DNA of 64,000 bases. It comes from Planctomycetota bacterium (GTDB lineage: Bacteria > Planctomycetota > Planctomycetia > Gemmatales > Gemmataceae). The first letter of the stretch is position 1. The number at the start of each line of letters is the position of its first letter. Of this stretch, positions 47,264 to 62,144 are shown piece by piece. The position numbers and the translations under genes were made by a program. The notes beneath the pieces are model-generated. The model saw only the letters and a program-made list of their open reading frames with translations, had not been told where the DNA came from and searched no databases. The stretch spans positions 1 to 64,000 of the forward strand of contig JACPPF010000087.1 of the NCBI GenBank assembly GCA_016191165.1, read 5' to 3'.

Positions 47264-47926
47264 ATGCTCGCCAAACTCACCACCTATGCGCTGGTTGGCA
47301 TCGACGCGTTGCCGGTCGAAGTCGAGGTCGATACCGCGCACGGCTTGCCCAAGACGATCCTGGTCGGCCTGCCCGACACGGCAGTCAAGGAGAGCGTGCA
47401 TCGCATCGAACGCGCCCTGGCGAACCTCGGCTATCAGCGTCCAAGTGGGCGCACCATCATCAACCTCGCGCCGGCCGATTTGCGCAAGGACGCCGGCGGG
47501 TTTGACCTGCCCATTGCGCTCGGCATGTTGGTCGCGACGGGGCAACTGCTTCCCGAACATGTCGCCGGCTGGGCGATGATCGGCGAACTCGCGCTCGAAG
47601 GGAGCGTCCGGGCGGTCAAGGGCGCCCTGTCCATCGCCATGGCGGCGAAAGCGGCTGGCATCACGCAACTCCTCGTGCCGACGCCGAACGGGCGCGAGGC
47701 CGCCGTCGTCGAGGGCATCCGCGTCTATGGCGTCAACACGCTCAGCGACGCCGTCGGCTTGCTCACGGGGCAGACCACGCAGGAGCCGATCCAGGCCCAG
47801 ATTCACGATCTCTTCCAGAAGCTCAATCAATACGACGTTGATTTCGCCGACGTGCGCGGCCAGGAGTACGCCAAGCGCGCCATCATCGTGGCCGCGTCGG
47901 GCGGGCACAACGTGCTAATGATGTAG
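47264..47926 (+). pseudogene. comM (YifB-type Mg-chelatase-like ATPase), truncated
   Basis: The 220-residue frame matches the N-terminal domain of ComM/YifB: LAKLTTYALVGIDALPVEVEVD, GLPKTILVGLPDTAVKES, GRTIINLAPADLRKDAGGFDLPIALG, VRGQEYAKRAIIVAASGGHNVLM. Intact proteins are about 500 residues and continue ...HNVLMIGPPGSGKT. Here the frame ends at HNVLMM-stop, immediately before Walker A, and the DNA changes at once to AT-rich sequence. The ATPase domain is absent from the window. ComM is a hexameric helicase for branch migration in natural transformation; the fragment cannot provide this activity. A TATACT box precedes the start. Confidence 0.88.
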
Positions 47927-48323: not shown

Positions 48324-49049
48324 ATGCCCGAAACGACGCAGGGCGCTCGCCCTTCGGTTTCTTGCGATGAGGTGATCGAGGCTGGCGTAGTGCAGTTGGT
48401 GGAGGCAACATCCCGCCTCAGACCCACTCCCACTACCGAGGCAAGCACCAAATTGGGGGCGGTTTGTCTGGAAGTCTGGGGGCAGGTGCTCCCGGCGGTG
48501 ATTCGGCGGCAACATTCGGATGCCTCGCCAATCGACGCCAAAATCACCGATCAAATGCGGATTACCCTTGACCTGGTGCAGGAATGCCTAGTGAGTGACA
48601 ATGTCCCTAGCGAACTCATGAAGATACTGGAAAGTTGCGAAAAGATCATCCTCTACGTGGCGGAGTTTCAGTCGTGCAGTCGCTTGCTGACGGAAATACT
48701 AACGGAAGTGGAAAAGCCCTCTGATTTTGCGCTTGGTATGCAGATTTGTAGGCTGGTGAGGCGTGGTTTTGATCTGCTCTTGATTGCCGCAAGGAACTAT
48801 GAGATTGACAACCGCTTCAAAGCAGATTTGGCGAACGACCAAGAGAACTTCAAAAAGATTATCGAGGCCGCACTAGGGGAAATGAAAAGATTCAAAGCTG
48901 GTGACAGCGAACAAGCAGAGTTGCTCTCGAAATACAAAAGGCATATCAATCTACGCCTAGAGGGGCTTTCGATCCTACAGAAAAGTGGGAGTGTGGAAGC
49001 GGATAAATTCATCAACGCTCCTGACGACCAAGTGAACAACGCGGCATAG
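48324..49049 (+). CDS. Island protein of unknown function (241 aa)
   Basis: The product (MPETTQGARPSVSCDEVIEAG...) is soluble and mostly helical, with TGGAGCGG in the leader. No motif or family is recognised. It is the first gene of a plus-strand run with the 122-residue protein, the ATPase and the cyclase-like gene, and by position may be an accessory or sensor subunit of that set (inference). Confidence 0.6.
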   Translation: MPETTQGARPSVSCDEVIEAGVVQLVEATSRLRPTPTTEASTKLGAVCLEVWGQVLPAVIRRQHSDASPIDAKITDQMRITLDLVQECLVSDNVPSELMKILESCEKIILYVAEFQSCSRLLTEILTEVEKPSDFALGMQICRLVRRGFDLLLIAARNYEIDNRFKADLANDQENFKKIIEAALGEMKRFKAGDSEQAELLSKYKRHINLRLEGLSILQKSGSVEADKFINAPDDQVNNAA

Positions 49050-49137
49050 CCTACCGACAGCATCGCGATAGTGTCCCAATAGGGAAGCGGGGAATCTTCG
49101 CATTTTGGTCATCCCAGAACGCCCGAGCACCCAAAGA

Positions 49138-49473
49138 ATGTCACCCATTGAGCGCGCCCTGAAAAAAAACCAAATTGATTTAGCCAGCGAAGTGGGACCA
49201 TTCTTCGAATCCCTGATAGATCATTACCATCTTCTTGTTCACACAGAGTTCCTTGCCCGGTGCCGTCTCAGAATCGATCCGGCCGCCGCAGAATATGTGT
49301 CATTTATTCAAATGGCTCAGGACTTCCTGATCGCTTCGTCCCGAATTGCAGGCAAGATAAAAAAGCAGTATCCCCAAGACTCAATGCATCACGCTCTTGC
49401 GCAAGGTGCGGTGTTGTTGACCGCCGACTTGCTAGATTCTTATTTGACTCGGCACAAGAACAAAGCATGCTAA
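49138..49473 (+). CDS. Island protein of unknown function (about 111 aa)
   Basis: The ATG at 49138 (MSPIERALKKNQ) is taken as start, though a TTG at 49105 would add 11 residues. The small helical protein has a central FLARCRLRIDPAAAEYVSF and ends RHKNKAC; no family is recognised. It ends 24 bases before the ATG of the large ATPase gene, so the two are probably co-transcribed. Confidence 0.5.
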   Translation: MSPIERALKKNQIDLASEVGPFFESLIDHYHLLVHTEFLARCRLRIDPAAAEYVSFIQMAQDFLIASSRIAGKIKKQYPQDSMHHALAQGAVLLTADLLDSYLTRHKNKAC

Positions 49474-49497
49474 AGATTCTTGACCAGCATTGTGCGA

Positions 49498-52239
49498 ATG
49501 ACAACGCCGGAGTTGGAATCTGATCATTTTGAACATGCAGCGTTCGAACCATTTTTACGCAGGATTCATATGGCTGAATCCATTCCGACTCCCGCAGTAT
49601 TGGTTACGGGCGACGTCTCCTTGGAGTGTTTTTCTATTCTTGAATCTGAAGGGTACGCGGACTCCAGCACGAGTTCTCAAAAGCCTCCGATCCCGATGCT
49701 CAAGTTTTACGGAGGCGCACAGCTATTAGAACGAATCCTTCGCATTCTCGTAGCTCGCCGACTTGCACACGCAAAGGGTTATCGGGCGCACCTCGCCCAG
49801 CGACTTGACGCACAACGCGCGAAACCGGCGGCCCTCGAGGAGTTGATTGATCCTTTGACCTCTGTTAATGCGTTGCATGAACATTATCTGCAGGAGCTTC
49901 AAAAGCGCCGTTCGAAGTTATATGAAGCCAAAAACGCTGAATTGATCGATTTGAGGCATTTTCATATCGAGCGATTGAAAATCAACGCTCTTGAGAATCA
50001 ACAATTCGCGACGCTTTATCACCAGATAAGGACGGCGCTTCGGGATATGGATTATCACTCACATTCTCGTTTTCTGAGTGATGAAGCTTCAAATGAAGAT
50101 GAAGCAACAGCCACAGGAAAACGCCTTGGTGAACTTGAGCAACGAATACATGCCTATGAAGGCCAGAGAAAGATCATTTTCTCTTGTCCATCGAATCTGG
50201 ATTCAATAGTCGGCGCACTAAAAAACGCATGGCTGGTAAAGTCGTACCCTCATTACGACACGATTCCGGGAGCTATGCGCCTGGAGCGGGCCAGTGATCC
50301 CCGGTTTTTCTTGGACAGCCTATCTGCAAAACCTGACCATTCCGGTGTTGATTCCGAAGAGCAATACCACCGATGGATCAAAGATGCAGCGTCAACTTTC
50401 AAGACGGCACTTGAATCGCGGCGCCCGATCGTATACTTTTTTAATGACTACGGTAGGATGGCAATGTCTCATGCCGTCAAGAGTATGATGGCTTGTCATG
50501 GAGAGGACACACAAACTGTTGTAGTTTTGGTGACACGGGACCTTCGTGCTCTGCTAAACGATTCTAGGCTTTGGCAGATCCTACAAGCTCACTTGGATCG
50601 AACAGTTATCATTCTGAGTGCAAGCGCCGCAAGGCGGGCAGGAATTAACATTAGCAAAGGAATCTCTTGGGAGCGAACAGCCTATGATCTTCATTCACAG
50701 ATTCGCGGCAACCAGATGTTGAAAGATTTCTCTCACGCACGCCATATTGTCGTGCGCTGTGGCATTGCGGGTGCGTTGCATGTTCACGATCGGAGCAGCG
50801 TTCTCTACTATTCAACTGAGTCAATGGAGGCCGATGCACACGATCGGGATCGCACCGGCGGAATGGGCTATTACTCCGGAATAATCGGTGCTACTATTGT
50901 TGAGAGCATACTTTGGGAACTGGCAGGCTCATCAGACATTGAGACCGTTTTCCGCAGAGGCGTAGGGCCGGCGATTCATCGAGGGATCTTGAATTGCCAG
51001 GCCTATTACCGAGAGGGATTGGGCAATAGTGTTGGGGACGCAGTTAAGGCGATTGAAAGGATGAATCAAGAGGATCAGTCAGAAGTTGGCGAGAAGGCTC
51101 CAAGGTGTTTGCGTGAACTAGAAACGGTGGAAAAATGGAAAGACAGCGGTGGAGTCGGTACGAAAGGAGTCGCGAGCACTGTCTTTGAGGTCGATGTTCA
51201 GGACGACCCACAATGGACGATACTCGATCCACGACATCGTGAATTTGAGAACGTTGCTCATCGGATTGTGGCCGAAGGAATTGTTAAGGCACAGGCAGGT
51301 CCGATGGGTTTTCCAGTCGGCCGCTTTGGAAATCTCGTAACCGTCGACCGGCGAGAGATCGAGGGCTACCGAACGATTCGCAACCTAATGCGAGATTATT
51401 GCTCGCCTGAAAACAAAGACCGTTCAAAAAAACCATTGTGCATTGCCGTTTTTGGTCCGCCGGGTGCTGGGAAATCCTTTGGTGTAAGGGAGATTGCAAA
51501 GAGCATTGGGCAGGGCCAGAAGGAGCCATTTTTGTTTAATGTAGCTCAGTTTACGACCCCAGACGATCTGGCAACTGCGCTAATCCGCGTCAAGGAGGTT
51601 GCCGTAGATCCTGTTGTTCCATTAGCTTTTTTTGATGAATTTGATGCTTCTTTGGATGAGCAAGAGTTGGGTTGGCTTCGTTTTTTTCTGGCACCCATGC
51701 ATGATGGGCAATTCAAACATCAAAAAGAGACGCTAAGTGTTGGTCGGGCGGTTCTAGTTTTTGCGGGAGGAGTAAGTAACACTTTTGTTGATTTTGGGAG
51801 AGAACAATCAGTCGACCCAAAGGATGTGGACATGTTTCGCCAAGCCAAGGGTCCAGACTTCGTTAGTCGACTAAGGGGCGTTGTGGATATTATGGGGGTA
51901 AACCGTACAAATGAGTGGGACAGCGCATTTGTGATTCGTCGAGCCGTAACGCTACGGATTCTGTTGGAAGCTACCTTTGGAAAGCTATTGGAGGACGGGA
52001 AATGCAAGGTCGATTCATCGGTCGTGAGCGCTTTTCTGAAGGTTCGAAGATACAAGCATGGCATAAGATCGATCCAAGCCATTCTGGAAATGAGCCAATT
52101 GTCAGACGCAAAGTCGTTGCATAAACATCAGTTGCCGATTGAGAGCCAACTGTCCCTGCACGTGGATGCCTGGGAGTTTCATGAGCTAATTAACCGGCAC
52201 GAAGTCGAGATGGATTCGAAAAAGGATGCTCTTTCGTAA
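49498..52239 (+). CDS. Ribokinase-like / AAA+ ATPase fusion protein
   Basis: The start is uncertain: ATG 49498, TTG 49480 or ATG 49570; none has a strong RBS. At about 913 residues it has two parts. The N-terminal two thirds looks like a PfkB/ribokinase-type fold (inference): VLVTGDVSLECFSIL near the start, IVYFFNDYGRMAMSHAV, HIVVRCGIAGALHVHD and GMGYYSGIIGATIVESI at the place where ribokinases have GxGD, with a large helical insert. The C-terminal part is a clear AAA+ ATPase: Walker A FGPPGAGKSFGV (near 656) and Walker B PLAFFDEFDASL (near 710), ending in a small helical domain. Codon use is AT-richer than in the flanking chromosome. It stands directly before the cyclase-like gene. Confidence 0.7.
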   Translation: MTTPELESDHFEHAAFEPFLRRIHMAESIPTPAVLVTGDVSLECFSILESEGYADSSTSSQKPPIPMLKFYGGAQLLERILRILVARRLAHAKGYRAHLAQRLDAQRAKPAALEELIDPLTSVNALHEHYLQELQKRRSKLYEAKNAELIDLRHFHIERLKINALENQQFATLYHQIRTALRDMDYHSHSRFLSDEASNEDEATATGKRLGELEQRIHAYEGQRKIIFSCPSNLDSIVGALKNAWLVKSYPHYDTIPGAMRLERASDPRFFLDSLSAKPDHSGVDSEEQYHRWIKDAASTFKTALESRRPIVYFFNDYGRMAMSHAVKSMMACHGEDTQTVVVLVTRDLRALLNDSRLWQILQAHLDRTVIILSASAARRAGINISKGISWERTAYDLHSQIRGNQMLKDFSHARHIVVRCGIAGALHVHDRSSVLYYSTESMEADAHDRDRTGGMGYYSGIIGATIVESILWELAGSSDIETVFRRGVGPAIHRGILNCQAYYREGLGNSVGDAVKAIERMNQEDQSEVGEKAPRCLRELETVEKWKDSGGVGTKGVASTVFEVDVQDDPQWTILDPRHREFENVAHRIVAEGIVKAQAGPMGFPVGRFGNLVTVDRREIEGYRTIRNLMRDYCSPENKDRSKKPLCIAVFGPPGAGKSFGVREIAKSIGQGQKEPFLFNVAQFTTPDDLATALIRVKEVAVDPVVPLAFFDEFDASLDEQELGWLRFFLAPMHDGQFKHQKETLSVGRAVLVFAGGVSNTFVDFGREQSVDPKDVDMFRQAKGPDFVSRLRGVVDIMGVNRTNEWDSAFVIRRAVTLRILLEATFGKLLEDGKCKVDSSVVSAFLKVRRYKHGIRSIQAILEMSQLSDAKSLHKHQLPIESQLSLHVDAWEFHELINRHEVEMDSKKDALS

Positions 52240-52371
52240 GGGCAGGCACGCGAAACCCCGACGATGTTTTTTCGTGATGCGAACTTTTTTCAGTTGATAA
52301 TTACCTCGCTTGATCATATATTTCCCACTAGACGAGTAGTTCGTTCGCTCGTATTTGATCAAGGGGGAGAA

Positions 52372-53805
52372 ATGACCATCGATGCGAGAGCACTGGATTA
52401 TGCTCGGGAAATGTTGTGCAACCAAAGGGACATGGGCGCATTGGCGAAGAAGTCCTGTGTCCTATTCGCGGATCTAGTCGGATTGAGCGAGTTCAAGCGG
52501 CATCATACACAGCGGGAGGCCCTTGACAAGACACTTGTTCACAACGCTGTGGTTACCGATGCAATCAGGAACTTGGGTGGCGATGTCATCAAGTACCTGA
52601 CCGGTGGTGTTCTCGGTGTGTTCGTTGACGACAACGCTGCGGAAAGAGCAATTCAGGCGGGACTGCAAATCCTTGTTGGAATTGACACGGCAAACCAAGC
52701 TCAACATTGGCTTTTTCCAAAGGAGATGAGCACTAAAATCGGGATCGCCTGGGGCGAAGTCTGGACGTTCAGCTTTCCGGAGTCTACAGAAAATGACCTA
52801 CAGGGTCTGGCGGTGGATATTGCTTGTCGGCTGGTAGACTTGGCCAGTTCCCAGCAACTGATTTGTACCGATGAGGCTTACCAAGAAGCGACCAGGAAGC
52901 CGGGAGGTGCAAGTAGCTTTCCCAACAGCGATCCGGAACCGACAGCGCGACTCGTTAGGGGCCTCCACGATCCGATCAACTTACGCGTTATTGCGCCGGA
53001 AGGGAAAGAACGCGAAAGTATCAAACTCGCCGGGCACCCGCGTGCTATTCCTGACTGGATGCATCGAAAAATAGACGAGGCACGCAACGCATATCGGATC
53101 GCGCAAAACGGAAAAGAAGAACAGATAGATGCGGCAATCAGGGCATTTAGCGAAGTTGTTTACGGATTCAGGGACGCGCGTGGTGATGTAATCAAAGGGG
53201 ATCCAGGAAACTTTGAGGCCAACGTGCGTGCGGCCGAACTTCTTTTGCACCGTAGCCGATACAACAAACCGGGGATTCAGGGTGCCGCCCTAGAGGAAGT
53301 CATCAAACACCTGTCACTTGCCAAGCAGACTAGGCCTGATTCACCGCACAGCTGGCTCCTTGCCTGCTGGACTAGGTTCAAGCGATTCGAGTTGCAACGG
53401 AACCCTGACGACTTGGTGCGAGCCGTAGACTTCGCTGAAACCGCAAAGAACGCCGCAGAGAAAATCTTGGACTCGGTAGGCACCTTGCTGGCCAAAACCT
53501 ACTTGGCACGGATGTTGTTAGCGAGGGCCGAGTGGAGCGCTGACGACGTTGCTTCAGCAAACGATATCGCGGCGGCGGCGAAATACTGCGGTGAGGTCCA
53601 GGAGGTCATACGTCATGTTCAGGGTAAGCGGCTCGCTCAATACCTGGTTACACACGTACTTGTGCGCCTCGCTCAAGGAGAAAGCGACTATGACGGTATC
53701 GAGAAGATGATAACAGAAGCAAAAGAAGTTGATCCGACCAACTCAGATCTTGAACATGCGTATGCGAAGCTCCGTGATGCACGCACGGCAATACTTGTGA
53801 AGTAG
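52372..53805 (+). CDS. Class III nucleotide-cyclase-domain protein with helical C-terminus
   Basis: The ATG at 52372 (MTIDARALDYA) follows AAGGGGGAGAA. The 477-residue protein opens with a class III adenylate/guanylate cyclase-type domain (about 20-190): VLFADLVGLSEFKR keeps the first metal-binding Asp. GGDVIKYLTGGVLGVFVDD corresponds to the GDG segment, but the second metal-binding Asp appears as Gly. IGIAWGEVW and GLAVDIACRLVDLA match the later motifs, with Asn replaced by Asp. The rest (about 240-477) is helical and TPR-like. It may make an unusual nucleotide signal or merely bind nucleotides (inference). It is 132 bases downstream of the AAA+ gene, same strand. Confidence 0.7.
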   Translation: MTIDARALDYAREMLCNQRDMGALAKKSCVLFADLVGLSEFKRHHTQREALDKTLVHNAVVTDAIRNLGGDVIKYLTGGVLGVFVDDNAAERAIQAGLQILVGIDTANQAQHWLFPKEMSTKIGIAWGEVWTFSFPESTENDLQGLAVDIACRLVDLASSQQLICTDEAYQEATRKPGGASSFPNSDPEPTARLVRGLHDPINLRVIAPEGKERESIKLAGHPRAIPDWMHRKIDEARNAYRIAQNGKEEQIDAAIRAFSEVVYGFRDARGDVIKGDPGNFEANVRAAELLLHRSRYNKPGIQGAALEEVIKHLSLAKQTRPDSPHSWLLACWTRFKRFELQRNPDDLVRAVDFAETAKNAAEKILDSVGTLLAKTYLARMLLARAEWSADDVASANDIAAAAKYCGEVQEVIRHVQGKRLAQYLVTHVLVRLAQGESDYDGIEKMITEAKEVDPTNSDLEHAYAKLRDARTAILVK

Positions 53806-53848
53806 ATACGGAGTCCGCGTCAGTCCGCGTCCCTGTGGTTGATGATAG

Positions 53849-54502
53849 CTAGATTCGGAATTCATCCTTGTCCTGCGTCCATTTGGCCCATTCACCTGCC
53901 CGGACTAACAGTAAGGAATCTCTTTGGTTTGGTCCAAGGACCGTGATGACAGGGCCTGGCATTCGAAAGCAGGATCGGATTTGATCAATGCTCATTTGCA
54001 AATCCATCATTATCTGCCGGGACAGCGACGTTGCCAAAATCGCAATCGTATAATGGGACCCGATAAAATCGATCGCGACGGTTTCAACAATCAATTGTTC
54101 TTGGAGCCATTCGTGAAGAAATGCGCTGATTTGGTGGGCGGCAATGCCGTCGTTGGCCATCTGATCCCTAGGCTCGACCATAGGTGGCCGATCATCTACA
54201 TATGGGGCTGTTAGGGCAATGTCATAGGAAATCGCCTCGCCGTCTCTTTCAACGTAAACGCGAATTGGGTTGGAGTGCGAAAGGGACTGCATGGCATCTT
54301 GCCCACTGGATTGATGGGGTCCTGACGACTCACGTCGAACTATCGGCCGACCCGCGGGGCCAACTTCACCTTTTTTTGCGTCTGTTTTCTCTAATAACCG
54401 GCGAAGTTCGTTGTTTTCTACAGACTTGTAATCGTCTTTCCGACCGTACGTTTGATCGTGGTCGTTATCATCAGCCGAAGGCGGTTTCATTGAATCAAAC
54501 AT
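53849..54502 (-). CDS. Island protein of unknown function (217 aa)
   Basis: The product starts MFDSMKPPSADDNDHDQTYG, with a charged, probably disordered N-terminal 90 residues. A compact C-terminal domain follows (YDIALTAPYVDDRPPM to ...AGEWAKWTQDKDEFRI). No family is recognised. It is convergent with the cyclase-like gene with a 43-base gap and has the same AT-richer composition, so it belongs to the same island block. Confidence 0.5.
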   Translation of the reverse strand: MFDSMKPPSADDNDHDQTYGRKDDYKSVENNELRRLLEKTDAKKGEVGPAGRPIVRRESSGPHQSSGQDAMQSLSHSNPIRVYVERDGEAISYDIALTAPYVDDRPPMVEPRDQMANDGIAAHQISAFLHEWLQEQLIVETVAIDFIGSHYTIAILATSLSRQIMMDLQMSIDQIRSCFRMPGPVITVLGPNQRDSLLLVRAGEWAKWTQDKDEFRI

Positions 54503-54830: not shown

Positions 54831-55922
54831 TCAATATCGAAGTACATACGCCGGGCTCTTGCTCAATCGGTCCCTGCTGCGGATGTAGGTCAGCGTCGTC
54901 CTGGGATCTGCATGTCCGGCAAAATCCTGCAAATCGATGATGTCTGATCCTCGCTCCCTCGCCGTGGTGAGGGCTGTCACCCTGAGCGAGTGGACCGTCA
55001 CCGCCGGATCGAGCCCGAGCCGCCGCACATATATAGAAAGGAGGGACTGGACGGAGCGGCGGGTCAGCGGCCGCGGTTGGAATCCATCCCGCCCCTTGCC
55101 GCGGGCCGATTTCTGCGGACGAAACAACGCAAGCTCACCGGTGTCGCGGCCGACGACAGCAAGCCATTCCTGCAACCGCTCGATCGCTTCCGGGTGCAAC
55201 GGCGTCCGTCGCTCCTTCCCGCCTTTTCCCCGGATCTCCAAAACCTTGTGTCCTCCCGTCTCCTTGTAATCCATCACGCGAAGTCGAGTGAGTTCACCGA
55301 CGCGGCAACCCGTGTACGCGAGCACCGCCAGCAGTGCTTGGTCGCGAATGCCGGCCGGCGTCTCGGTATCCGGTGCATTCATCAGTCGGCGGCAATCCTC
55401 CGGCGAAAGACCAACGGTCTTGCCGTCCCTTGGCACCGGCGGCACCATGACGAAATCGCTGTGGGCCGGGTTCGCACCGGCATACCCATACGTCTGCAAA
55501 TACGAAAACAAACTTCGGAGCACCGTGATTTTCCGAACGATCGCGACGTTCGATAGGCCATCCCCGCGAAGTTGATCACGCCACGCGGCGACCTGATGCG
55601 GGCGGACGGTGACGAGCTGCTCCAGGTGGTCTGGCGCGATGCCGACGAAGTCGAGGAACTGCCGGAGTTCCCGGGCGTACGCCGTTCGCGTTTCAACGGA
55701 CGATGATTTCGTAAGCCAGGCCGTGCACGCTTCGGTGAAGCGGACACGAACATCAACCGCCGTCAAACCTGGCTCGCGGTCGAACGCCGGAATGAGCGCC
55801 GCGGTGGACGCGACCGCTGAATTGTGGTTCAGCCCTTCTTGCTGCTCGGAATCCTCACCGACCATTGACGAACGATTCGATTCATTTTCTCGATGCCGAT
55901 GCTTTTTGGAGTCGGATTTCAT
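54831..55922 (-). CDS. Tyrosine recombinase / integrase
   Basis: The start is the ATG at 55922 (MKSDSKKHRHREN), giving 363 residues. A SAM-like core-binding domain (VRFTEACTAWLTKSSSVETRTAYARELRQFLDF) precedes the catalytic domain, which carries all active-site residues: Arg in YTGCRVGELTRL, Lys in IRGKGGKERRTPL, HSLR in VHSLRVTALTTA, His in FAGHADPRTT and the Tyr nucleophile in LTYIRSRD. It is distinct in sequence from the three recombinases at 57-60 kb and is the best candidate for mobilising the AT-rich block or the entire comM island (inference). Confidence 0.88.
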   Translation of the reverse strand: MKSDSKKHRHRENESNRSSMVGEDSEQQEGLNHNSAVASTAALIPAFDREPGLTAVDVRVRFTEACTAWLTKSSSVETRTAYARELRQFLDFVGIAPDHLEQLVTVRPHQVAAWRDQLRGDGLSNVAIVRKITVLRSLFSYLQTYGYAGANPAHSDFVMVPPVPRDGKTVGLSPEDCRRLMNAPDTETPAGIRDQALLAVLAYTGCRVGELTRLRVMDYKETGGHKVLEIRGKGGKERRTPLHPEAIERLQEWLAVVGRDTGELALFRPQKSARGKGRDGFQPRPLTRRSVQSLLSIYVRRLGLDPAVTVHSLRVTALTTARERGSDIIDLQDFAGHADPRTTLTYIRSRDRLSKSPAYVLRY

Positions 55923-56210
55923 TGCGTGCAAAGTGCGTTTCGCGAAGTATGATACGAACGCGAACAAAAATGCAAGCGCCCAAAAGAACAGGATTCCAGA
56001 TCGTTGCAATCACTTCTACTTCACAACAATTCGACCCCCTGCCAAGCGTTTTCCCCTCGTGCTTGACGCATAATCGAAAACATGTTCCAGCCGTTCATCG
56101 CATTCTCAAGGTTGCGCGCTCGCAATTTTCGTGGCTTAATGTTCGACCCCGTACCGAAGGTCGGCACGGGTGTCTGAGACCATCGTTCCTTTCAAGAAAG
56201 GCAGGTTCGC

Positions 56211-56348
56211 ATGTCCACGAAAACGAAGAAGGCGCCGTCGGCTCCCCGGCGACCGGAGAAAAAATGGGGACCGTTTGCTGGCGGCGTCGGCGTTGCCGTC
56301 TGGCTCAACGAAGCCGACACGGAGCAGGGGAAAAAGTTCTTTCGCTCT
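56211..56348 (+). pseudogene. Gene A, 5' half, split by the RIT element
   Basis: These 46 codons read MSTKTKKAPSAPRRPEKKWG...WLNEADTEQGKKFFRS, preceded by an AAAGG site. They match the first 50 or so residues of the intact paralogue at 56514-56872 (KKWGPFAGGTGVAVWLNEFET...ARTITLSPRR). After FFRS the similarity stops abruptly at AATGTGGCGC, the end of the inserted element. The matching 3' half begins at 60335. Joined, the halves give a protein of about 117 residues. Confidence 0.8.
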
Positions 56349-56451
56349 AATGTGGCGCAAACGGTTATGTGGCGCGGAGGCATTTCACGTTGGCAAATTG
56401 AGTGCCTTCAGATTCTCTTGCCAGCCCTCCCGTTCGGTGTCACTGTTCTCG

Positions 56452-56470
56452 CCTTGCCTTTTTGGCAAGG
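56452..56470 (+). terminator. Hairpin before gene B
   Basis: CCTTGCC TTTTT GGCAAGG forms a 7-bp stem upstream of the gene at 56514. It lacks a downstream U-tract and may be a leader hairpin or weak terminator. Confidence 0.4.
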
Positions 56471-56513
56471 ACTCTGAGAGCGGTCTTTTTCATCACCGAA
56501 AGGAGGTTGCCCA

Positions 56514-56872
56514 TGGCGACCAAAGAAAAACGCGGGAAGAAAACGCAACCCCGCCATCCTGAAAAGAAATGGGGGCCGTTCGCGGGCGGAACCGGCGTGG
56601 CCGTCTGGCTGAATGAATTCGAGACAGCAGCCGGCACCCGCTACGCGCGAACGATCACGCTTTCCCCACGTCGGTTTCGCGATCCGAAGACCAATGAGTG
56701 GCGAGATGGCGCCTACCGTCCCGTCGATTTGTCGGCGATGCTGTTGGCTCTTCAGGCCGCACTCGACTACTGCCACTCGACTCCGCTTCCTGGTGAAGCG
56801 GCCGAGCCGGAGGAAGTCGATGCGCTCGCTGAGGGCGAAGAGTCGCCGTCCGATCCGAAGGCGCCTTTCTGA
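56514..56872 (+). CDS. Gene B: small conserved protein, intact paralogue of gene A
   Basis: The 119-residue protein starts MATKEKRGKKTQ with AAGGAGG six bases upstream of the ATG. Core motifs: KKWGPFAGG, VAVWLNE, TITLSPRRFRDPKTNEW, RPVDLSAMLLALQAALDYC, then an acidic tail. From memory similar small proteins occur on plasmids and archaeal elements, and the strand pattern could suit a nucleic-acid-binding fold; this is unverified. It lies inside the RIT-containing insertion and ends with a strong terminator. The presence of both the interrupted copy and this intact one suggests they were ancestrally adjacent or that B travelled as cargo. Confidence 0.7.
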
Positions 56873-56901
56873 AGTGATTCTGTCCTTTTGCCGCTCTCAG
56901 A

Positions 56902-56934
56902 AAAAATCCCCATGCTCGTTGCATGGGGATTTTT
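56902..56934. terminator. Bidirectional rho-independent terminator after gene B
   Basis: AAAAATCCCCATGC TCGTT GCATGGGGATTTTT has a perfect 9-bp GC-containing stem flanked by A and T runs, so it can act on both strands. It separates gene B from the recombinase trio. Confidence 0.9.
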
Positions 56935-56963
56935 CAGTTAAAGGAAGCCGCGACTTCCGGTTT

Positions 56964-56979
56964 GAACGTCACATAACTT
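56964..56979. repeat. RIT inverted repeat, left
   Basis: GAACGTCACATAACTT is the reverse complement, with one mismatch, of AAGTTATGTGGCGTTC at 60222-60237. The two enclose precisely the three recombinase genes (57021-60215). They are candidate recombinase binding sites or the ends of the minimal element. Confidence 0.75.
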
Positions 56980-57020
56980 TCGTCCAAGCATTCACCCTTT
57001 CCATTCCTTTTGGAGTGACC

Positions 57021-58268
57021 ATGTTCGAACGAATCTTGAAGGATCCGAAGGCTCTGGCTCGTCATCAGAACGGGCCGCTGGCGGAGGAACGTCGGCGTTA
57101 CCTCTTCCACTGCGCCGCCAAAGAACAGACGACTGGGGAAACGTTGCACGGCCTCGCCAACTACCTGCTGGTCATTGCCGAGGCGTTGCGCCTGGACAAG
57201 CGGCCTGGCGAATTGATCTCGCCGGACGAAGTCGATGCCGAGGTGCACCGGTGGATCCATCGTCCCAGACGGAAGAACGTCGGCAAGTTGCAGATCGCGT
57301 TTCGGAATCGCGCCATTCGTTGGCTGACGTATTTGGGACGGATGCAACTGCCTCCCAGCGTTCAGCGACCATTTGCCGATTACGTCGCCCAATTCACGGA
57401 GCACCTCTGCCAGGAACGCGGTTTGGCGCCGGGAACCGTCGCGCTCTGCGAGCGAACGATTCATGGATTTCTTGGAACGATCCACAAAGCCCGTTTGCGA
57501 CTCAAAACACTGACCGTGGCCCAGGTGAACGACCTGCTCGCCAAGGATGTTCAGGATCGTGGCTTTGCACGCTCGACCGTGAGTCGGCAGGCATCGGTTC
57601 TGCGAGAATTCATCCGCTTCGGGGAAAAACGAAACTGGTTCCGTCAGGGACTGGCGGACGGAATCCAGGCTCCGCGTGTGTATCGGCACGAAGGCTTGCC
57701 GGTCGGCCCGTCTTGGGACGACGTGAAGCGGCTTCTGACGGCGGCCGAGGGAGATCGGCCTACGGACATTCGCGATCGTGCCATATTGATGCTTTTGGCG
57801 GTGTATGGCCTGCGCGCCGGTGAAGTCGTCACGCTGCGACTGGAAGACTTCGATTGGAAGCACGAGGTCCTGAATGTTCCACACGGCAAACGAAAGAAAC
57901 CCCGGACCTACCCGCTGTGCCGCCCGGTTGGAGATGCCGTGCTCCGCTACTTGTGCGAGGTTCGACCTCGAACCGATTACCGGGAAGTCTTCCTGACTCG
58001 CATCGCACCAATCAAGCCAATGGACCCGTGCGCGGTAGGAGAGATGGTCCAGAAGCGTCTACACGCTCTCGGCCTGACGCTGCCGCACTATGGTTCGCAC
58101 GTACTTCGGCATGCTTGTGCCACCCATCTGCAGTCGCAAGGTCTGTCGCTGAAAGAGATCGGCGACCACCTTGGGCACCGATCCCCGGAAACCACCCGCA
58201 TCTATGCCAAGGTCGATCTGGCGGCGCTACGCGCTGTCGGAGACTTCAATCTGGAGGGCCTGCTATGA
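57021..58268 (+). CDS. RIT tyrosine recombinase 1
   Basis: The ATG at 57021 (MFERILKDPKALARHQ) is seven bases after TGGAG; the longer open frame is a shadow of gene B. The 415-residue enzyme has an extended N-terminal domain (about 1-110), a SAM-like core-binding domain (YVAQFTEHLCQERGLAPGTV) and a catalytic domain. Active residues: Arg in YGLRAGEVVTLRL, Lys in PHGKRKKPRTYPL, HVLRHACATHL, LGHRSPETT and the Tyr in RIYAKVD. First gene of the trio; its TGA overlaps the next ATG (ATGA). Confidence 0.9.
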   Translation: MFERILKDPKALARHQNGPLAEERRRYLFHCAAKEQTTGETLHGLANYLLVIAEALRLDKRPGELISPDEVDAEVHRWIHRPRRKNVGKLQIAFRNRAIRWLTYLGRMQLPPSVQRPFADYVAQFTEHLCQERGLAPGTVALCERTIHGFLGTIHKARLRLKTLTVAQVNDLLAKDVQDRGFARSTVSRQASVLREFIRFGEKRNWFRQGLADGIQAPRVYRHEGLPVGPSWDDVKRLLTAAEGDRPTDIRDRAILMLLAVYGLRAGEVVTLRLEDFDWKHEVLNVPHGKRKKPRTYPLCRPVGDAVLRYLCEVRPRTDYREVFLTRIAPIKPMDPCAVGEMVQKRLHALGLTLPHYGSHVLRHACATHLQSQGLSLKEIGDHLGHRSPETTRIYAKVDLAALRAVGDFNLEGLL

Positions 58269-59212
58269 ACATCAGCGATTTGGTCACGCACTATGTCGCC
58301 TTCCGCCGCACGCTGGGCGAGCGGTGCGACACGAACGAGCACATTCTTCGCTCTTTCTGCCGCGCCATCGGGCCGCGGACACGGGTTAACCGGATTCGCG
58401 CCAAAGCCGTTGCCGCGTTCTTGAACGGTACCGGCCCGATTACCCGCGCATGGCACGGCAAATACTCCGCGCTGAAGGGGTGCTTCCAGTTTGCGGTCAG
58501 CCGCGGCGACATGGACAAGGCGCCGCTGCCGACAGAAGTGCCGAAGCGTCCGCCGACGCTTGTTCCATACATCTACTCGCGTGCAGAAATCCGGCGCCTG
58601 CTGGATGCAATCCCATCGTACCGGCGCTTCCCGAGCCACATGGAGCCGACCACCCTGCGAGCAATCCTGTTGCTGCTGTATGGAGCCGGGTTGCGGCGCG
58701 GAGAGGCGCTGAAATTGTCGGCCGCCGACGTAGACTTGGCGAACTCCCTTCTCACGATTCGCAATACCAAGTTCTTCAAGTCCCGGCTGGTTCCCATCAG
58801 CGCGGACTTGACGAAGGTTCTGAGCGATTACGCGCGCTGGCGAGCGGCGGCGCATCCGTCAGCCGGCGCTACCAGTACCTTCTTCCTCAACAAACGAGGG
58901 AATGCCGTTCATCGATGCACCTTGGACAACGCCTTCAAACGGTTGCGGGAATATGCCGGCGTGCGGCGCTCCGACGGCGGACGCTTTCAGCCGCGGCTTC
59001 ATGATCTTCGACACGCCTTCGCGGTCCATCGATTGACCGAATGGTACCGGCAGGGAGCGGAAGTCCAACGGCTCGTGTATCACCTCTCCGTTTACCTTGG
59101 CCACGCCCACCTGACCGACACGCAAGTTTATCTGACCCTGACGCCGGAGCTTCTGCAGCAGGCGAGCACGCGTTTTGAGCGGTATGCCCGCAAGGAGGAC
59201 GGTGATGCGTGA
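58265..59212 (+). CDS. RIT tyrosine recombinase 2
   Basis: The 315-residue product starts MNISDLVTHYVAFRRTLGE, at the ATGA junction with recombinase 1. The catalytic residues are present: Arg in YGAGLRRGEALKL, Lys in RNTKFFKSRLVPI, LHDLRHAFAVHRL, YLGHAHLTDTQVYL with the Tyr nucleophile. It ends in ...RKEDGDA, overlapping the third gene by eight bases. Tight overlaps suggest the three proteins are made in a fixed ratio and act as a complex on the element ends. Confidence 0.9.
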   Translation: MNISDLVTHYVAFRRTLGERCDTNEHILRSFCRAIGPRTRVNRIRAKAVAAFLNGTGPITRAWHGKYSALKGCFQFAVSRGDMDKAPLPTEVPKRPPTLVPYIYSRAEIRRLLDAIPSYRRFPSHMEPTTLRAILLLLYGAGLRRGEALKLSAADVDLANSLLTIRNTKFFKSRLVPISADLTKVLSDYARWRAAAHPSAGATSTFFLNKRGNAVHRCTLDNAFKRLREYAGVRRSDGGRFQPRLHDLRHAFAVHRLTEWYRQGAEVQRLVYHLSVYLGHAHLTDTQVYLTLTPELLQQASTRFERYARKEDGDA

Positions 59213-60215
59213 TCCTTCCTTGCTCGGTCCGTGGGTCCGCCGGTTCCTGATGGAGCACATGGTGAGCGAGCGAAATCTCGCCCGCAATACCCAGCGGAGT
59301 TACCGCGACGCCTTGCGGCTGTTGCTCCCGGTTGTTGCTCGGCGCGCCCGTAAGCCAGTTGATCGCCTGGTCGTGACCGACATCTCAACTGACCGCCTGC
59401 GACAGTTCCTAAACGAGCTGGAGGAGAAACGCGGATGCGCTATCTCCACGCGCAACCAGCGCTTGGCAGCGATCCACGCACTGGCTCGGTTCATCAGCCG
59501 GCGTGCTCCGGAGTTGGTCGAATGGTGCGGACAAGTGCGAACGGTGCCGTTCAAAAAGGGTCCGCAGGAGCTGGTCCCGTACTTGGAAAAGCCGGAGATG
59601 GATGCCCTGCTCGCGGCCCCGGACATGGCGACCGCACAGGGCTGTCGAGACCATGCCGTGCTTCAGTTCTTGTACAACGCCGGGGCTCGGGCCAGCGAGG
59701 CCGCGGAGGTTCGCATCGGCGACTTGAACTTGCCGCACGTGCCGGGCCGGGACCAAGCCTCAGTCGTGATCCAGGGCAAAGGGAACAAGCAACGGCTGTG
59801 CCCTTTGTGGGCAAGTACCGCCAACGAACTGCGCCTTCTCATTGGCAATCGAGCCGAGTCAGAATACGTCTTCTTGAATCGTCGCGGGCAGCCGCTGACC
59901 CGATTCGGCATCCACGCCCTCGTGGAACGCTACGCAAGAAAAGTGACGCCGAAGTTCCCTTCGATGGCAAAGAAACGTGTGAGTCCGCACACGATCCGCC
60001 ATACGACCGCGACTCACCTTCTGCGAGCTGGAAACGACATCAACACGATCCGTGGTTGGTTGGGCCATGTCTGCCTCAGCACGACGAACATCTATGCCGA
60101 CGTGGACATGGAGATGAAGGCCAAAGCTCTCGCGAGCTGCGAGATCAAGGAAAAAAAACCGAAGAAGCGTTGGCGCGACGACAAAGGGTTAATGGGGTTC
60201 CTGGAAAGGTTGTAA
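59205..60215 (+). CDS. RIT tyrosine recombinase 3
   Basis: The ATG at 59205 (MRDPSLLGPWVRRFLMEH) follows AAGGAGG by five bases. The 336-residue protein is XerC/D-like: SAM-like domain (LARNTQRSYRDALRLLLPVVA), Arg in YNAGARASEAAEVR, Lys in IQGKGNKQRLCPL, HTIRHTTATHLLRAG, LGHVCLSTTNIYADVD with Tyr. It ends in a basic tail (KEKKPKKRWRDDKG). Six bases after its stop lies the right 16-bp inverted repeat. Confidence 0.9.
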   Translation: MRDPSLLGPWVRRFLMEHMVSERNLARNTQRSYRDALRLLLPVVARRARKPVDRLVVTDISTDRLRQFLNELEEKRGCAISTRNQRLAAIHALARFISRRAPELVEWCGQVRTVPFKKGPQELVPYLEKPEMDALLAAPDMATAQGCRDHAVLQFLYNAGARASEAAEVRIGDLNLPHVPGRDQASVVIQGKGNKQRLCPLWASTANELRLLIGNRAESEYVFLNRRGQPLTRFGIHALVERYARKVTPKFPSMAKKRVSPHTIRHTTATHLLRAGNDINTIRGWLGHVCLSTTNIYADVDMEMKAKALASCEIKEKKPKKRWRDDKGLMGFLERL

Positions 60216-60310: not shown

Positions 60311-60336
60311 CGGTAATGTTGTGCACAACATTACCG
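60311..60336. repeat. Perfect 26-bp palindrome at the right junction
   Basis: The palindrome has CGGTAATGTTGTG as one 13-bp half and its exact complement as the other, with no spacer. Its right end touches the position where gene A resumes (60335). It may be a recombinase synapsis or strand-exchange site, or a remnant of the target. Confidence 0.8.
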
Positions 60337-60962: not shown

Positions 60963-62144
60963 TCATTTCGTTGCCGGAAGATCGACGGGGAATTCTTGCC
61001 ACGTCCAACCGTCCGGCCCATCGGTGGGCCAGACACGAACGGGCCTGTATTCGTCACCGAATAGCTTCTGCAACTCGGCGATGGCCTTGAGATGTTTCGC
61101 CTGAAGGTGCGGACGCACGGTGACGAGATGCTTCGCTTCGTCCCGCAGCACGATGAAATCGAGACTGCTGACGAAGGGCGCAACCGCAGGCGTTGTGCGT
61201 TTCACGTCGTCGATGGCGACAAACGCCAACCCGCGGTTGTTCATCCATGAAATATATTGTTTGAGCACGAAGTGACGCGGTTGCTTGATCGCTCGCCGCT
61301 CGCCTTGGCCGTTGGATGAATCATCGGGGGGCGTCACAACCCGTGTCACCTCCCGCCGAATTGGGCCACGGGCGAGCGACTCATCGACCGGTTCACAAAT
61401 CGCAACGCGCCGTCCCTCCTTGAGAAGTTTGTGCAGATAGGTTTCGAGCTGATGGTGTGGAAAGCCTGCCATCGGAAGGGTTTGATCACGCGTGGTCAGC
61501 GTCAACCCGAGCAATTTGTGGGCAGTCTCGGCGTCCTCCCCAAACAGCTCGTAGAAATCCCCCATGCGAAAAACGAGCAGCATATTGGGATGCTTCTCCT
61601 TTGCCTCCTGGTACTGCTGCATGATCGCCGACCGACCAATTGGTAACGGCTGGGATTTCACTGCGGCCGGCGCCGACGCTGTGGTTCGGATTCGGCGTTT
61701 CCTCTTTTCGGGCGGCGGCTCCGCTAGCGGCATGACCGTCGGAGAGTCAAGAATTGGCTCGGGGCCGAGGATCTGAAACGCCATGCGGCGGATATGCGAC
61801 TTGAGACGGGCGTATGGTTCTTTTCCTTCGGTGATAATCTCCACGAGGACTTCGCATGCATTGGCCATGGGCTCTTTCCCGTATTCCTCGGCCATCGGCT
61901 TTATTTTCTCCCTCGCCTCATTCATGTGCATCGCCTTGTAGCCGAGTAGACGCACCACGGCGATCCAGTGCGGTAGCGTGTACATCTTCTGCAGCAGTTG
62001 CTCCTTCTCCTTGCGGGTGAGAGCAATTTCCGCGGCCGGCGTTGGCTGAGATTCGGACAGGAGGCAAATGCTGCCACAGACGAGATTCCACGGCAAATCG
62101 ATGTACGTCACGACCGACAAATCATAACGGAAACTCCAACTCAC
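60963..62144 (-). CDS. Stand-alone MutS domain I protein
   Basis: The 393-residue frame (start uncertain, since the first 30-40 residues overlap the previous gene) has a helical N-terminal third, a basic Pro-rich linker and then MutS domain I at about 172-272. This domain carries MQQYQEAKEKHPNMLLVFRM, GDFYELFGEDAETAHKLLGL, LPMAGFPHHQLETYLHKLL, RRVAICEPVDE and VTRVVTPPD. The Phe-x-Glu mismatch wedge (FYELF, about 197-199) is intact. All later MutS parts (clamp, ATPase) are missing. The C-terminal 110 residues (SLDFIVLRDEAKHLVTVRPH...) are unassigned and might be nuclease-like (weak inference). It may recognise mismatched or distorted DNA during element transfer. Confidence 0.75.
   Translation of the reverse strand: MSWSFRYDLSVVTYIDLPWNLVCGSICLLSESQPTPAAEIALTRKEKEQLLQKMYTLPHWIAVVRLLGYKAMHMNEAREKIKPMAEEYGKEPMANACEVLVEIITEGKEPYARLKSHIRRMAFQILGPEPILDSPTVMPLAEPPPEKRKRRIRTTASAPAAVKSQPLPIGRSAIMQQYQEAKEKHPNMLLVFRMGDFYELFGEDAETAHKLLGLTLTTRDQTLPMAGFPHHQLETYLHKLLKEGRRVAICEPVDESLARGPIRREVTRVVTPPDDSSNGQGERRAIKQPRHFVLKQYISWMNNRGLAFVAIDDVKRTTPAVAPFVSSLDFIVLRDEAKHLVTVRPHLQAKHLKAIAELQKLFGDEYRPVRVWPTDGPDGWTWQEFPVDLPATK

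Follow-up and report, generated by a model that had tools for sequence, protein, structure and literature searches.

An apparent pseudo-ribokinase fused to an AAA+ ATPase, beside a cyclase-like protein in a planctomycete comM island: a candidate sensor-switch

What does a group of AT-rich genes do that sits inside an interrupted comM gene and in which a protein combining a ribokinase-like domain with an AAA+ ATPase is followed by a protein with a class III cyclase fold? The group lies at positions 48324-54502 of the window, a stretch of 64,000 nt from Planctomycetota bacterium (Gemmataceae; assembly GCA_016191165.1, contig JACPPF010000087.1, positions 1 to 64,000 of the forward strand). It consists of five open reading frames (ORFs), here called A to E, all of which we found as listed by the first-pass annotation, four on the plus strand and one convergent (Table 1). 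The low GC content claimed for this part was observed as well (0.48-0.54 over 48-54.5 kb, compared to about 0.60 on either side). The same annotation had proposed that the kinase-like part of C and the cyclase D produce a small-molecule signal, which we found to be unsupported by the residues of either protein. The best explanation of our data, which we regard as evenly poised between right and wrong, is that C is an island-borne sensor-switch without the RyR domain of most relatives and with pseudoenzyme sensor domains, that D is its likeliest partner and that the module is probably defensive.

The claimed ribokinase-like/AAA+ fusion in the 913-residue protein was upheld by predicted structure. 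We modelled C with AlphaFold2 using 66 relatives (pTM 0.74, mean pLDDT 71.9; residues 180-335 are for the most part of low confidence). Since the Foldseek list for the whole of C was filled by ClpB/ClpC-type AAA+ proteins, the VIA comparison was adopted. By this comparison residues 29-567 match several sugar and cofactor kinases with Z values of 14.7-16.2: LacC is the best match (Z 16.2, 272 residues aligned, model residues 32-567), fructose-1-phosphate kinase reaches Z 16.0, and a putative phosphofructokinase and pyridoxal kinase match too, while residues 607-902 match AAA+ proteins of the ClpC, ClpB and NtrC type (Z about 15). Sequence libraries detect the AAA+ part only, with Pfam AAA_22 slightly below its curated cut-off (E 8.4e-6) and a weak match to the bpMoxR profile. 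Pfam PfkB gave no match in C, and a profile-profile comparison of the N-terminal half with PfkB sequences of the same genome gave a probability of 0.2, the PfkB set being thin and partly composed of wrongly chosen frames. Sequence searches for solved relatives of C returned short P-loop or chance matches, nothing more. The N-terminal half is, on the basis of its predicted fold, probably akin to the ribokinase/PfkB superfamily, which includes LacC, fructose-1-phosphate kinase and pyridoxal kinase; C shares with this superfamily the N-terminal GD, which is invariant among the 66 aligned members, and the internal GG, which is common among them.

Kinases of the superfamily have their catalytic Asp in a GAGD motif, whereas the C family does not have it. 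In the 66-row alignment the ribokinase motif GAGDxFxAG appears as GxTSCFVAGL, and the position of the catalytic Asp holds Ser in 49 rows, Ala in 6, Thr in 5, Gly in 3 and three further residues once each, but never Asp (0/66); in C itself residue 461 is Gly. By contrast, all 66 rows keep the Walker A Lys/Ser, the Walker B Asp-Glu and several arginines of the AAA+ domain, and C carries the family-invariant residues (Walker A/B, W726, P733, R791 and R857-S858). Judged by these residues, the N-terminal half of C and its relatives looks like a pseudo-ribokinase that has lost kinase chemistry, and the absent Asp together with the invariant Walker motifs reads as ligand sensing and ATP hydrolysis without phosphotransfer.

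A similar loss was observed in D. The cyclase-domain neighbour announced by the first-pass annotation is real: D matches the PADLOC model of PycC (E 6.5e-15), its cyclase domain reaches E 0.022 in Pfam, and the predicted fold of this domain resembles CyaC (TM about 0.80) and is followed by a helical TPR-like tail of moderate model confidence. In a comparison of 43 cyclase domains the second metal Asp is kept by 41, but D has Gly, encoded by a codon one base away from an Asp codon. At the catalytic Asn position D has Asp, as do four other compared domains, and the first metal Asp, the purine-side Lys and the Arg are retained. If D forms a homodimer of the class III type, this is expected to lack activity. 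The parallel to Pycsar failed a control. D shares with Pycsar the class III cyclase fold and matches to the PycC model, but such matches occur at 1e-8 or better in 135 of 199 genomes of the phylum, nearly all of them far below two clear PycC-like proteins (1e-76 and 1e-97). Scores like that of D are common in ordinary cyclases of the phylum (1e-14 to 1e-28), and both PycC-like proteins keep the second metal Asp that D has lost. Among A, B, C and E, neither Pfam nor PADLOC recognised a Pycsar effector of the TIR or membrane-protein type with its cyclic-nucleotide sensor. We rejected D as a PycC-clade cyclase or Pycsar member on account of its unspecific score. No D was found in viral contigs.

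With C and D each lacking a key residue, neither should make a signal. That the N-terminal half of C modifies a nucleotide or sugar, or that D makes a cyclic nucleotide, and that the AAA+ part reads the product is in our view very improbable. Both folds belong to nucleotide-using enzymes, and the retained metal Asp, Lys and Arg of D would suit such a reading; the missing Asp in all 66 ribokinase-like domains, the Gly in D, the unspecific PycC score and the fact that the C-D pair does not recur in 100 related loci speak against it.

For a wider view we scanned GTDB contigs and found 395 stretches coding for a relative of C, 80 of which were retrieved; the retrieved set leans to Clostridia and includes some short contigs. 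Relatives were observed in Clostridium, Pelosinus, Desulfosporosinus, Chloroflexi, Chlorobi, Planctomycetota, a Verrucomicrobiales bin, deltaproteobacteria and archaeal bins, and further ones on two plasmids and one viral contig; none were found in phage records. Within the phylum and the class the distribution is patchy (9 of 392 and 21 of 397 genomes, respectively). Sixty of the 66 aligned members end in an RyR domain, a domain named after animal calcium channels, while C and five others do not have it, and neither a family-built RyR profile nor Pfam matches RyR in C. Full-length alignment showed that the ribokinase-like and AAA+ core of C is the same as that of prokaryotic proteins annotated as 'RyR domain-containing protein' (WP_264051538.1 of a Methylobacterium plasmid, and Clostridium and Chloroflexi members). 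C differs from these in that its RyR end is missing, its ribokinase part contains a long helical insertion and its neighbour has a cyclase fold. In a tree of the AAA+ core, C sits on a long branch and groups with six sequences that come from planctomycetes or from a viral contig (support 96/87). The assignment of the window to Planctomycetota agrees with genome G266 of its class, in which the relative of C is identical to that of a named Planctomycetota bin (rows L016 and L104). We found no literature on the combination of RyR, ribokinase and AAA+; an earlier mention in the 2015 'nucleotide-centric systems' paper is possible.

The neighbourhoods of these relatives give a hint at their function. 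At a minority of loci they stand beside or are fused to RyR, TIR, SLOG, SLATT-like, TrkA-RyR, RelA/SpoT or NB-ARC-WD40 domains; the member fused to NB-ARC-WD40 (L169) is very divergent, and at L160 RyR is a separate ORF that overlaps the end of a short member. Nucleotide-linked conflict systems typically contain domains of the RyR, TIR, SLOG/SLATT, RelA/SpoT and NB-ARC-WD40 type. In the 150 genes immediately next to a relative we counted RyR 6, TrkA_N 5 and TIR 4 times, compared to at most once each among 119 genes five places away, and these small counts indicate a trend only. We also noted neighbours of about 600 aa in which a TrkA-N domain of the potassium-channel regulator type is fused to RyR (L086, L082, L087, L093, L084 and L090); such a neighbour is a possible ion-flux effector. 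No relation of D to the SLATT-like or TrkA-RyR partners was found. Two close relatives of C have a convergent downstream ORF in common (L018 7755-8552 and L105 12182-12598, E 6e-20), which E of the window does not match.

From this distribution it could also be argued that these proteins regulate metabolism or stress responses instead of serving defence; a sugar or nucleoside would then be sensed by the dead ribokinase, and a target protein would be controlled by the AAA+ part. In many chromosomes of Clostridium, Pelosinus and Desulfosporosinus the gene indeed occurs in single copy and neighbour-free, and the AAA+ fold is also near that of NtrC-type activators. We nevertheless regard this as quite unlikely, given the patchy presence in phylum and class, the neighbours or fusions of TIR, SLOG, RyR and STAND type, and the members on plasmids, a viral contig and the comM island. 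Somewhat less doubtful, and still offered tentatively, is the proposal that these proteins are a widespread and so far undescribed family of immune-type switches. Their dead ribokinase would sense a small molecule or phage protein, the AAA+ part would act as motor and RyR, TIR, SLOG/SLATT or NB-ARC-WD40 would serve as interchangeable outputs, with the dead cyclase as output or co-sensor at the present locus.

In the explanation that we prefer, the ribokinase-like half of C would bind, but not phosphorylate, a ligand (nucleotide, nucleoside, sugar-phosphate or protein), and binding would gate the AAA+ part. The latter, possibly assembled in a ring, would hydrolyse ATP and switch the state of an effector that is either attached to it or encoded next to it. 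In most members RyR is the attached part; at times a partner in trans (RyR, TIR, SLOG/SLATT) accompanies it or takes its place. In the C of the window the RyR slot is empty, which makes a trans partner plausible, and D would most likely take this role, binding nucleotides as a sensor or adaptor. As a whole, the module would most likely defend against phages or other mobile elements. A comparable combination has been described for conflict systems built on MoxR-type AAA+ ATPases together with vWA and VMAP components. These systems include cNMP-cyclase domains, of which some are inactive and have been proposed to bind nucleotides or to regulate in a dominant-negative manner (Kaur et al. 2020, PMC7159879). 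C and D resemble these systems in combining AAA+ with a cyclase domain; Pfam matched no vWA, VMAP or beta-propeller component in A-E, and a ribokinase-like part as in C goes unmentioned for them (PMC7159879).

How firmly can D be linked to C? Adjacency, the same strand and shared composition point to a partnership: B, C and D are closely spaced and have their low GC in common. The gap between B and C is 24 nt with the C start at 49498, 6 nt with an in-frame TTG at 49480 and 96 nt with an ATG at 49570. Between C and D it is 24 nt, or 132 nt with the more likely D start at ATG 52372 (477 aa), which stands directly behind AAGGGGGAG, a better ribosome-binding site. In 100 loci with a relative of C (88 and 12 planctomycete loci), A, B, D, E and a class III cyclase profile remained without a match, and the C-D combination was rejected as a recurrent pair on this sample, which leans to Clostridia, contains some short contigs and does not cover 315 of the 395 GTDB stretches. 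Sister members in the clade of C have no cyclase neighbour, the sole match being a 60-residue ORF that looks like chance (E 0.001). Hence, of what the first-pass annotation had expected, the ribokinase-like fold of the N-terminal part was borne out by structure prediction, while C and D were not seen together in the other loci, so that D may be a bystander. This leads to a further reading, in which C acts alone as an ATP-driven sensor-switch and A, B, D and E are unrelated passengers on the same mobile element. The non-recurring pair, the lack of a fixed neighbour in most family members and the 132-nt gap agree with it; the tight order of B, C and D on one strand, their common foreign composition and the missing RyR tail do not, and we consider it rather unlikely.

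Besides the missing recurrence of the pair, further points weigh against a defensive sensor-switch with D as partner. Most clostridial members have no common neighbour, which suits a one-gene housekeeping or stress role equally well. The catalytic register of the ribokinase-like domain was set by the motif, which lies where helix 459-477 begins, and not by residue-level superposition. A defence role is an inference for every member of the family, and about 64 kb separate the module from the closest recognised defence genes, which are in the other comM insert.

The codon-position GC pattern of the smaller genes A, B and E matches that of C and D, though the lengths of B and E are within chance and that of A exceeds it mildly (chance probability by ORF length 0.95 for B, 0.11 for E and 0.04 for A). 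Pfam, PADLOC and other profile libraries gave no family match above noise for A, B or E. Homologues of A and E were found neither in plasmids nor in 149 related genomes nor in the fetched loci of C relatives, and for B none was found in these loci, the only place searched for it. The link of E to the module is unproven. In the stretch no RNA families were found, promoter-like sites are at chance level and repeats are short.

The mobile, defence-rich setting suggested earlier was borne out, and the comM island is larger than visible in the window. Two inserts, one at the HNVLM/Walker A codons and the other at those of NPCPCGY, break comM into three pieces, as the pieces and the cut-site repeats at the junctions show (CCGTGCGGCTA at the second junction). 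The first insert (about 58.4 kb) contains the A-E module, a tyrosine recombinase next to it and a trio of recombinase genes; at least two more recombinases were noted at C79:83523-85945. Trio and further recombinases suggest tandem elements inside this insert. The second insert (beyond 106.8 kb) carries a defence cluster at C79:118207-133000, and the comM hotspot thus accumulates defence genes. Right behind the trio we observed a 26-base perfect palindrome, CGGTAATGTTGTGCACAACATTACCG (60311-60336), as a possible recombinase site; CACAACAT occurs both in it and in the repeat at the comM insertion site. Ahead of the trio, two overlapping short ORFs (56211-56477 and 56402-56872) contain related stretches (KKWGPFAGG.GVAVWLNE; a 77-nt repeat at 77%). 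The island also carries, at 60963-62144 on the minus strand, an isolated MutS domain I (Pfam 3.4e-34), the rest of MutS being absent.

Table 1. Features of the module and of the comM island; unprefixed positions are those of the window
Feature	Position	Strand	Remarks
Gene A	48324..49049	+	241 aa, mostly polar, no known family
Gene B	49105..49473	+	122 aa, TTG start, no known family
Gene C	49498..52239	+	913 aa, apparent pseudo-ribokinase and AAA+
C, ribokinase-like domain (residues 32-567)	49591..51198	+	helical insertion ~73-183; VIA
C, AAA+ ATPase (residues 608-902)	51319..52203	+	Walker A 653-660 and Walker B 709-714 intact
Gene D	52264..53805	+	513 aa, class III cyclase fold and helical TPR-like tail
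D, codon of residue 114	52603..52605	+	Gly at second metal Asp position; comparison of 43 cyclase domains
Gene E	53849..54502	-	217 aa, convergent, no known family
comM, N-terminal piece	47264..47926	+	ends at HNVLM; left end of first insert
Likely insertion-site repeat CACAACGTGCTAATGAT	47906..47922	+	recurs as CACAACATGTTGATGAT, 3 mismatches, at C79:106354, where comM resumes
comM, middle piece	C79:106354-106779		from HNMLMIGTPGSGKT to MNPCPCG
comM, C-terminal piece	contig C89 (L125 about 1330-1818)		from PCGYMGDP
Tyrosine recombinase adjoining module	54831..56009	-	Pfam Phage_integrase 1.5e-26
Three overlapping tyrosine recombinase genes	56613-58268, 57854-59212, 59175-60215	+	profile matches
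GmrSD-type gene	C79:118207-120012		second insert
SIR2-type gene (Aga_SIR2)	C79:120395-121537		second insert
Hma-type genes	HmaC at C79:124209-126647		second insert; HmaA/B/C models, also DrmA/DrmD

Taken together, our findings indicate that in hundreds of bacterial and some archaeal genomes an AAA+ motor is combined with a domain that resembles a kinase but apparently lacks the chemistry of one. Should this family form an immune switch, the ligand that it binds would signal infection in a new way. As the version in the window lacks the RyR tail and has an apparently dead cyclase as its neighbour, it lends itself naturally to separating the sensing parts from the acting ones.

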